Virus record (IMG/VR): IMGVR_UViG_3300034122_002435
Coordinates: 1 to 20,523 of that record
Source of the DNA: a virus
DNA length: 20,523 nucleotides
Direction: 5' to 3' (one strand)
Under the pieces are notes generated by a model that did not search any database, was not told the DNA's origin, and was given only the letters and a program-made list of their open reading frames with translations. The first letter of the stretch is position 1. Each line of letters opens with the position of its first letter. Of this stretch, positions 8,142-11,528 are shown one piece after another. Position numbers and translations under genes: made by a program.

Positions 8142-8939
8142 ATGACCAAGAAAACCACCAAGCAGCCGGAGTTGGACGACCTGTCGTTTCTCGCCGACGC
8201 CACGCCGAACCAGCCGGAGCCGGAGGCGACCAAGCCGGAGCCCAAGCCCGAGCCGGTGCCGGAGCCGGTGCCTATGCCCGTCATCAGGCCCGAGCCGCCG
8301 CCGGTGCTCGCCAAGGCCGAGGTGATGCCGCCGCCAACGCCGATCCGGTTCGGCCCTCGGGGCTTCGAGCCCGACACGTTCGAGGCCGTGCAACGCCTGT
8401 CGCGGTTCTACTTGGCGGGCGACGCCCTGCCCAAGTCCACGATGGCCGGGGCCCGCGACGCGACGGCTGTGCTTGCCCGCATCGGCATCATTCTGGAGCG
8501 TGGCAAGGCGCTCGGCCTGCCCGCGGGCACCGCCCTCGAAAGCATCACGATCATCAACGGGCGGGTGTGCCTCTGGGGAGACGCCATGCTCGGCATTGTC
8601 CTGGCACACGCCGACTGCGAAGGCGTCGAGTGCGTGATGCAGGGCACCGGCGACGACCGCTTCGTCGTCTGCACCGCCTACCGCCGCGGCCGCAAGGTGT
8701 CGCCGTCACGGTTTGGCGTGGCCGACGCCAAGCGGGCTGGCCTGTGGGGCAGGTCGGGCCCGTGGTCGTCCTACCCCGACCGCATGCTCCAGGCACGTGC
8801 TCGAGGCTTCGCCCTCCGCGACACGTGGGCGGACGTTCTGACGGGCACCAAGGTTGCCGAGGAGGTGCTCGACTACGACGAGAACCGCAACCACGCCGAG
8901 GGGCTGGCCGAGTTGATGGAGCGGCTTCGGGCAGGATAA
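8142..8939 (+). CDS. RecT-like single-strand annealing protein
   Basis: 265 residues; ATG 8142 follows AGGAGA at 8131-8136, ten bases after the nuclease stop. Residues 1-70 are an acidic then Pro/Glu/Lys-rich, presumably disordered, tail with repeated PEP. The core (72-245) carries the signature of phage RecT-related proteins: GVADAKRAGLWG (192-203), GPWSSYPDRMLQARARGFALRD (206-227) and ADVLTG (230-235). Such proteins bind single-stranded DNA and anneal complementary strands, working with the 5'-3' exonuclease next door. The long Pro-rich N-terminus is unusual and may dock the nuclease or a host single-strand-binding protein. Assignment rests on the motif block, not a search. Confidence 0.8.
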   Translation: MTKKTTKQPELDDLSFLADATPNQPEPEATKPEPKPEPVPEPVPMPVIRPEPPPVLAKAEVMPPPTPIRFGPRGFEPDTFEAVQRLSRFYLAGDALPKSTMAGARDATAVLARIGIILERGKALGLPAGTALESITIINGRVCLWGDAMLGIVLAHADCEGVECVMQGTGDDRFVVCTAYRRGRKVSPSRFGVADAKRAGLWGRSGPWSSYPDRMLQARARGFALRDTWADVLTGTKVAEEVLDYDENRNHAEGLAELMERLRAG

Positions 8940-9772: not shown

Positions 9773-9856
9773 ACAACGAGGCCGGGAGCGGCGGGGCGGG
9801 GCAGGGCTCGGCAAGGCGAGGCCAGGCGGGGCGGGGCAAGGCAAGGCAGGGCAAGG

Positions 9857-9891
9857 AACATCCGCAACGGCGAAAGCCGGGGCGGGTGGTT
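9857..9891 (+). other. Hairpin A of the array (GAAA loop)
   Basis: AAC 9857-9859 pairs with GTT 9889-9891, then a bulged G at 9888, ATCCGC 9860-9865 with GCGGGT 9882-9887 (one T-G pair), an internal loop, and CGGC 9868-9871 with GCCG 9876-9879 capped by GAAA. Confidence 0.75.
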
Positions 9892-9981
9892 TGCGGCGGC
9901 GCGGGGCCGGGTGTGGTCTGGCTTGGCAGGGCTGGGCTTGGCGGGGCGTGGCAAGGCGAGGCGGGGCAAGGCACGGCAAGG

Positions 9982-10016
9982 AACATCCACCGCAGCGGAA
10001 GCGGCGGTGGGTGGTT
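9982..10016 (+). other. Hairpin B of the array (GGAA loop)
   Basis: AAC 9982-9984/GTT 10014-10016, bulged G 10013, ATCCACCGC 9985-9993/GCGGTGGGT 10004-10012 (nine pairs, one T-G), an A/G mismatch, GC/GC, and a GGAA tetraloop at 9997-10000. Confidence 0.78.
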
Positions 10017-10117
10017 TGGACGCGCGGCCAGGCGGGGCTGGGCAAGGCCGGGCGGGGCGGGGCACGGCATGGCAAGGCACGGCGAGGTCAGGCGGGGCGT
10101 GGCAGGGCAAGGCATGG

Positions 10118-10152
10118 AACATCCGCACGAGAGGAATCGCGTGCGGGTGGTT
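10118..10152 (+). other. Hairpin C of the array (GGAA loop)
   Basis: AAC 10118-10120/GTT 10150-10152, bulged G 10149, ATCCGCACG 10121-10129/CGTGCGGGT 10140-10148. The stem sequence differs from B at several pairs, each compensated on the other side. Then an A/G mismatch, GA/TC, and a GGAA loop at 10133-10136. Confidence 0.78.
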
Positions 10153-10233
10153 TGGACGCTGGGCTCGGCTCGGCGTGGCCTGGGACGGCCGGGCAGGGCT
10201 AGGTGCGGCACGGCGCGGCGCGGCAAGGCACGG

Positions 10234-10268
10234 AACATCCACCGCGGCGACAGCGGCGGTGGGTGGTT
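10234..10268 (+). other. Hairpin D of the array (GACA loop)
   Basis: AAC 10234-10236/GTT 10266-10268, bulged G 10265, ATCCACCGC 10237-10245/GCGGTGGGT 10256-10264, inner GC/GC, loop GACA 10249-10252 (the only copy not strictly GNRA). Confidence 0.76.
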
Positions 10269-10355
10269 TGTTGGCGAGGCGGAGCCGGGCCCGGTCTGGC
10301 TTGGCCGGGCTGGGCTTGGCGTGGAAAGGCTTGGCAATGCGAGGCAAGGCACGGA

Positions 10356-10635: not shown

Positions 10636-10724
10636 GCAGACCCCCCAATAGAGACTCATGCAGACCTCATCGACATTCCGACCCCGCACCGTGCCTTGGC
10701 GTACTGCATGCGCCGGGGGTCTGC
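10636..10724 (+). ncRNA. Structured leader RNA of the replication gene
   Basis: GCAGACCCCC 10636-10645 pairs perfectly with GGGGGTCTGC 10715-10724. Inside it CATGCAG 10657-10663 pairs perfectly with CTGCATG 10704-10710. A second GCAGACC at 10660-10666 could compete for the same GGTCTGC, allowing an alternative fold. The structure starts at the predicted +1 and ends 23 bases before the GGAG Shine-Dalgarno (10747-10750). It matches no riboswitch class that I recognise; it could be a regulatory leader or a small RNA. Confidence 0.45.
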
Positions 10725-10757
10725 CACGGTGTCGGGTCGGGCTGTCGGAGAGCGGAT

Positions 10758-11528
10758 ATGTCCAACCTTGACATGACCGACGGAATCTACCGTCGCATCT
10801 ACTCGGGTTTCATCAGTCACCCGAAGATCAACGCTCTGTCATGGATGGCCGAGGCATGGTTCTGGCGGCTCGTCGTGCTGGCGGACGACTACGGCAACCA
10901 TCCGGCAAACTGGCGACTGTTGGCCGCCATTGCAAGCCCTGTGCGTGACATCTCCGCGGCTGAGGCCAAGGCCTTGACGGAGGAGTGCATCGCCCAATCG
11001 CTGGTCACCCTGTACGACCACGAGGGGCAGCCGTACCTGAACATCTCGGGCTTTACCAAGCGGCAGCCCGCCAACAAGAACGGGCGGCGGATTCAACGCT
11101 TCCCGATGAACGGCCCCGTGCCCACTGGGGAATCCGGGGGAATCCGGGTGAATCCGGGTGAATCCAAGGGAATCCGAGTGAATCCGGGTGAATCCGGGGG
11201 AATCCGGGGGAATCCAGTCCCTCCTATACCTACTCCTATTCCGATTCCAAATCCGACTCCTACTCCTACCTCGAGTCCAAGCGATCCGACGCCAACCGAT
11301 GGCATCGGGCCGCGACCGATGACCATGGACGAGCGGCAGCAGGTCAGGCAGGGATTGATTCGCATTGGAGTCGATTCAGGGGCAGCACAGCAGGTAGCCC
11401 TGCACCCGCTGCTCACCCTTGCCATGGTCACGAGCAACATGAAGGCCGTGAAGAAGTCCAAGGGCGTCAAGTCGCAAGCCGCCGTGCTGCTGACCAGGCT
11501 GCGCCGTGAACTGGAGATTGCGGAATGA
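10758..11528 (+). CDS. Replication-initiator-like protein with internal iterons
   Basis: 256 residues; ATG 10758 follows GGAGAG (10747-10752). Met at 10773 (MTDGIYRR) is an alternative. Residues 8-105 look like the N-terminal winged-helix domain of phage replication/replisome-organiser proteins (GFISHPKINALSWMAEAWFWRLVVLADDYGN, then a short strand-rich end YLNISGFTKRQ). Residues about 124-153 are three copies of GESGGIRVNP encoded by 10-bp DNA repeats. Residues 154-181 are a Pro/Thr/Ser hinge, and 186-256 a helical C-terminal domain. This layout (DNA-binding head, origin inside the gene, partner-binding tail) resembles lambda O. It overlaps the next gene by ATGA. Function is inferred from architecture. 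Confidence 0.7.
   Translation: MSNLDMTDGIYRRIYSGFISHPKINALSWMAEAWFWRLVVLADDYGNHPANWRLLAAIASPVRDISAAEAKALTEECIAQSLVTLYDHEGQPYLNISGFTKRQPANKNGRRIQRFPMNGPVPTGESGGIRVNPGESKGIRVNPGESGGIRGNPVPPIPTPIPIPNPTPTPTSSPSDPTPTDGIGPRPMTMDERQQVRQGLIRIGVDSGAAQQVALHPLLTLAMVTSNMKAVKKSKGVKSQAAVLLTRLRRELEIAE
11127..11215 (+). repeat. Nine 10-bp iterons (GGKGAATCCG), candidate phage origin
   Basis: AATCC recurs exactly every 10 bases at 11131, 11141, 11151, 11161, 11171, 11181, 11191, 11201 and 11211, mostly as GGGGAATCCG or GGTGAATCCG. The spacing places every copy on one face of the helix. A lower-GC, pyrimidine-rich stretch (about 11216-11280, CCTACTCC/ATTCC hexamer-like) follows immediately, as an unwinding element would. 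The tract lies inside the initiator-like gene. Confidence 0.75.

Follow-up and report, generated by a model that had tools for sequence, protein, structure and literature searches.

A candidate phage replication origin formed by short direct iterons within an initiator gene

The window, by which we mean the whole stretch of viral DNA analysed here (20,523 bases), carries a gene for a protein of 256 aa (10758..11528, + strand) that, judging by its profile matches, is a replication initiator of the PHROG 1408 type. The protein matches two profiles named 'replication initiation protein', PHROG 1408 (E 1.1e-08, residues 17-112) and PHROG 2149 (E 3.4e-04). It comprises an N-terminal winged-helix domain, presumed to bind iterons (10758..11111, + strand), a linker encoded by repeats, and a short C-domain (C-terminal part, 11321..11528, + strand), where the relatives L011 and L180 differ from it. 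On the 5' side of the initiator gene are an exonuclease VIII-type gene (7223), a RecT-like gene (8142) and a phrog_4652 gene (8957); terminase and portal genes lie on its 3' side, from 15360 onward. The next two ORFs after the initiator gene gave no convincing profile match, and thus no recognisable helicase or helicase loader.

The window protein has no match in Pfam (E <= 1) or NCBIfam. Unlike lambda O, it matches no phage O family in Pfam at that threshold, and its PHROG matches are not to O-like profiles; likewise, neither Pfam nor plasmid records give a match that would place it in a plasmid Rep family. Plasmid records give 40 matches for the N-domain of the homologue L024. An AlphaFold model of the window N-domain, built from a 35-sequence alignment, is a winged helix (mean pLDDT 82.5, pTM 0.76), and its fold matches in BFVD include several 'Replisome organizer' entries (TM 0.78 and 0.82), in agreement with the winged-helix N-terminus proposed in an earlier, sequence-only reading of this DNA. 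Fold matches of the model in the PDB are weak winged helices, a PDB sequence search gave nothing meaningful, and Rfam gave no match.

Inside the initiator gene are nine GAATCC cores, at 11130, 11140 and onward to 11210, which are spaced by exactly 10 bp and end at 11215. TRF, run on the window, finds the same iteron array (11127..11215, + strand; consensus GGGKGAATCC) as 8.9 copies with a period of 10. The lag-10 local score of the array is 63, a value reached by none of 3000 shuffles of the initiator gene that keep the protein and the codon pool (shuffle maximum 41). The next-best lag-10 score anywhere else in the window is 46, a second peak that is probably caused by an array of GGCNN pentamers at 9.8-10.35 kb. 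All GAATCC cores (36/36) are identical across the window and its near relatives L008-L010, and the five variable columns of the array are all in the 4-bp spacers. A 10-bp unit is not a whole number of codons; the core is thus read in all three frames (as ES, I and NP), and protein constraint is a poor explanation of the array. Hence, the nine regularly spaced repeats that the sequence-only reading placed inside an initiator-like gene are confirmed, and the comparison with related phages that it proposed indicates that the repeat is conserved as DNA beyond the needs of the protein.

Directly 3' of the iterons lies a candidate unwinding tract (11216..11290, + strand) with a weak 6-bp periodicity. 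Its GC content is 52%, as compared to 61% for the gene, and 67% of its bases are pyrimidines, matching the earlier description of a lower-GC, pyrimidine-biased stretch after the repeats; among 75-bp windows of the record, 0.7% have a GC content as low and 0.06% have a pyrimidine content as high. Within the tract, TRF finds a CTCCTA unit at 11221-11269. Taken alone, the period-6 tract of the window is not significant against protein-preserving shuffles (p = 0.109); short-array periodicity is weak in the window gene but strong in homologues.

An array inside the gene of a winged-helix protein could be an operator, i.e., a site through which the initiator represses or times the expression of its own operon. 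Plasmid initiators usually regulate themselves by iteron binding, and the winged-helix model weakly resembles the MarR, BlaI and CodY regulators (best E 0.0095). Nonetheless, the array is ~370 bp inside the gene, and an operator would leave the second array unexplained. We consider it very improbable that the iterons are an operator and nothing else; an operator role may exist alongside origin function.

Our analysis of the wider family used 109 homologous genes, from which we kept 68 representatives by dropping genes with at least 85% N-domain identity to a kept gene, as well as one truncated gene (L293). Bases 270-640 of each gene were given local scores that were compared with those of 200 protein-preserving shuffles (p <= 0.05); iteron lags of 10 and 11 were scored after masking the short array, and earlier lag-12 matches were mostly doubled 6-bp repeats. 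The layout that emerges is a 10/11-bp iteron array followed by an array of 5-8-bp repeats, between the N- and C-domains. Fifty-six of the 68 representatives have significant iterons at lag 10/11, 53 have a significant short array at lag 5-8, and 43 have both, with 3/68 significant at the control lags of 13/14. By contrast, the 95 other long ORFs of the same loci, which served as controls, include three with lag 10/11 repeats, three with lag 5-8 repeats, none with both, and five with lag 13/14 repeats. Iterons precede the short array in all 43 representatives that have both, the two being separated by a median of 10 bp (range 2-43); two representatives, L244 and L272, have neither array. A second set of 29 genes (14 from isolate phages and 15 from bacterial loci), all of which were scored with the same test fixed beforehand, has iterons in 9/14 isolate phages and 7/15 bacterial loci, and short arrays in 14/14 and 5/15, respectively; both arrays are present in 11 genes, with the iterons first in 11/11. 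The bacterial loci are clearly weaker: 10/15 are without a significant short array, and several of their ORFs are short. The sequence-only reading held that homologues which keep the protein but lose the periodicity would speak against an origin, and a minority do so: no 10/11-bp array could be detected next to the N-domain in 12/68 representatives, 5/14 isolate phages and 8/15 bacterial loci.

The short arrays are strand-asymmetric, with a purine fraction of at least 0.7 or at most 0.3 in 40/53, as compared to 3.8% of control segments; on the coding strand, 32 of the asymmetric arrays are purine-rich and eight are pyrimidine-rich. None of the 56 iteron arrays has such asymmetry. We rejected the idea that the short arrays are simple AT-rich unwinding elements, since their GC content is below that of the gene in only 30/53; the median is 0.02 below the gene. 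Recurrent units include AAGGATC, GGGAA and CCCTCG, with CTGATTC found in Escherichia, Pseudomonas, Bordetella, Vibrio and Acinetobacter phages, and GGGAACAG or close variants in Mycobacterium, Gordonia and Propionibacterium phages.

Tandem slippage could produce repetitive linkers, and it might be argued that the repeats are merely a low-complexity interdomain linker that grew by replication slippage, with no cis function for either array. Indeed, the arrays encode flexible-looking peptides (SGSGSG in L213, SPSPSP in L289 and L290, PTPTP in the window), the sequence and period of the short array vary between close relatives, and the 6-bp tract of the window does not stand out from protein-preserving shuffles. 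A linker of this kind would not be expected to keep the GAATCC core in all frames with a 10-bp unit that is not a multiple of 3, nor to have the same core in N-domain types that are only about 25-27% identical to that of the window, nor to show a fixed order of arrays (43/43 and 11/11) in a layout that control ORFs are without. We therefore regard this explanation as unlikely; slippage accounts better for the short arrays than for the iterons.

The relatives closest in protein sequence differ in what follows the N-domain. N-domain identity to the window is 98-100% for the viral relatives L008-L010, 66% for L011 and about 61% for L015, which is on the same contig as L180; the C-terminal parts of L011 and L015/L180 are unlike that of the window. 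In L011, GAATCC stays in 10-bp phase (eight such cores in the part that was examined), and a different reading frame applies to its (TCCGAT)n tract, which encodes SDSDSD vs PIPIPNP in the window. The retention of phased GAATCC in a gene with a different C-terminus, and a tract read in another frame, counts in favour of an origin. NCBIfam adhesin matches of L011 were rejected because they arise from the SD repeat. The O-like profile phrog_678 matches L011 over residues 101-280, and the C-terminal PHROG matches of relatives are variously O-like (L011, L201), primosomal (L180, L188, L316) and DnaD-like (L188, L201). Given this diversity of C-terminal matches, the N-domain and the iterons seem to move as a unit, with exchange of the partner domain.

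In IMG/VR, a search for the DNA word located 47 stretches with three GAATCC spaced by 10 bp, and 31/47 arrays are inside ORFs that match the N-domain profile, a fraction that is not fully independent of the profile since the latter was built in part from relatives found through their arrays. At 11-bp spacing there were 63 stretches, with 8/63 in N-domain ORFs, several of these being weak matches. A scan of genome contigs with the GAATCC pattern found at least 117 stretches; among the stretches listed, most have a single match. Three stretches from Saccharopolyspora genomes (L074, L082 and L061) have 8-14 GAATCC at 10-bp spacing at the start of an unrelated ORF, and the repeat alone thus proves nothing. 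In a separate case (L194 and L282, on the same contig), the gene contains a GCGGATTCCT repeat and, past the short array, a separate run of GCAAATGRCA in 10-bp steps, as though it had iterons of two types.

We also examined 19 annotated or unannotated stretches around the gene. In Pseudomonas phage F10, the initiator gene is followed by a DnaC-like loader and then DnaB; it is followed by a DnaC-like loader in Escherichia phage Louie, a DnaB-like helicase in Pitbull, a helicase in Gsput1, an ATP-binding protein in Shamal and psageB2, and a 'replication protein' in Tyrion. In phage HK639, the homologue gp54 comes after cI, cro, cII and one gene of unknown function, and before 'replication protein 14', a place comparable to that of lambda's O. 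In other stretches, such as those of Butters and Purky, only hypothetical proteins adjoin the initiator gene. These neighbourhoods bear on whether the array could be a partition site, i.e., a centromere of the TubR or ParR type. Centromeres typically have short direct repeats in phase, and the weak fold matches include TubR (rank 11), but the genes adjoining the relatives in F10, Louie, Pitbull and Gsput1 are for helicase loaders or helicases, and no partition NTPase is annotated in those four stretches. We consider a partition site the least probable of the explanations discussed here.

We conclude, with a probability of roughly 0.8, that the array in the window is a phage replication origin within its own initiator gene, with lambda-like placement, short direct iterons, and a candidate unwinding tract that is itself built from repeats. 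The intragenic origin suggested by the sequence-only reading is thus supported by the placement of the array, the identity of the gene, conservation at the DNA level and recurrence across the family. We propose that the winged-helix N-domain binds the nine 10-bp direct iterons, probably as one monomer per iteron on one face of the helix, and that the assembled complex would strain and open the adjoining strand-asymmetric tract, one strand of which may then be captured. By analogy with the relatives, the C-domain would recruit a helicase or loader. The stretch between the N- and C-domains would be a protein linker and a cis-acting origin at once, such that the sequence of the linker would be dictated by origin DNA.

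The proposed origin shares features with two groups of known systems. As in lambda, where ori is in gene O (Jha et al., 2016; PMC5043065), the proposed origin lies in the initiator gene, with iterons followed by a tract that is strand-asymmetric in most genes with a short array; the coordinates bear out the lambda-style placement claimed earlier. The unit is also shorter than lambda's, as claimed: the family has 10/11-bp direct iterons (GGGKGAATCC, 10 bp, in the window), whereas those of lambda are 19-bp inverted repeats with dyad symmetry that are bound by O dimers (PMC5043065). The tract after the iterons differs as well: in the family it is a tandem array of 5-8-bp units, as a class not AT-rich, whereas the opening region of lambda is rich in A+T and has almost all of its purines on a single strand (PMC5043065). 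The helically phased direct repeats resemble those of the iteron plasmids RK2, F and P1; plasmid iterons bind monomers in helical phase, the RK2 opening element has short repeats of its own (A+T-rich 13-mers), and the RK2 and F initiators bind the single-stranded opening element (PMC5043065). The layout combines the placement and strand asymmetry of lambda with phased direct repeats like those of plasmids. Plasmid iterons are longer, and are usually outside the rep gene.

Phage initiators of PHROG 1408, 2149 and 16167 have the same N-domain family, and some are named 'RepA-like replication initiator' in actinobacteriophage records; we found no description of their origin anatomy in the open-access literature. 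For five mycobacteriophages, the origin is likely within or immediately upstream of repA, whose product may be outside this family, and the same study reports the interval from the tail genes to parS-L to be free of repeats (Wetzel et al., 2020; PMC7157519). We did not find the two-array intragenic layout in the open-access literature, where most subscription-journal reviews are missing.

Aligning the representatives together with the second set allowed us to class 38/96 genes by iteron word. The residue at window position 56 is A or C in 31/31 genes with GAATCC iterons; in the seven genes with AAATG or AGATG (ARATG) repeats it is W, Q, K, R, R, R and A, i.e., A or C in only 1/7, a covariation that is confounded by kinship. 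L283 and L286 have the N-domain type of most ARATG genes, yet the position-56 rule holds. We tentatively suggest, at somewhat less than even odds, that these genes represent an undescribed, widespread class of phage origin in which 10/11-bp iterons are read by a winged helix, after which a strand-asymmetric, non-AT-rich 5-8-bp array is opened and gripped as a sequence-specific single strand, with the covariation of DNA word and position 56 being a readable initiator-origin code. The sequence signature could pinpoint origins in many phages, with hosts that include Mycobacterium, Gordonia, Pseudomonas, Vibrio and Escherichia as well as uncultured ones. Two questions can also be put to the test: what opens an origin that has no classic AT-rich element, and how initiator and origin co-evolve when one stretch of DNA is both linker and binding site.

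The sequence-only reading had proposed GC skew around 11.2 kb as a check. The cumulative minimum is at 8558 and 11.2 kb is not singled out; we dropped GC skew as evidence for the origin, since the minimum lies at a distance of ~2.6 kb, and the GGCNN array may have influenced it. This intergenic, G-rich array (9777-10350) has four diverged copies with 71-76% identity, at 9855, 9980, 10116 and 10232, each containing GGAACATCC, a variable inner segment resembling a stem-loop whose arms are complementary, and GGGTGGTTTG. GC skew peaks at +0.33 there, and the array has no Rfam match. L008 has the same four units; the exact word is absent from the examined stretches of L009, L010, L011 and L180. A long imperfect hairpin (~10665-10754; z -3.2), with a 6-nt bulge in its 3' arm, lies directly 5' of the initiator start codon. 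Hairpins of similar shape and different sequence are found upstream of L011 (z -5.5), L180 (-3.3) and L181 (-4.4), and long hairpins likewise upstream of L292 and L286, with none in L009 (z +0.6); the upstream hairpin has z <= -3 in 13/68 representatives, some being terminator-like. Lastly, the ORF at 731-2056 contains a collagen-like GATGPTG repeat (1583-1783) with 18-bp and 36-bp units.
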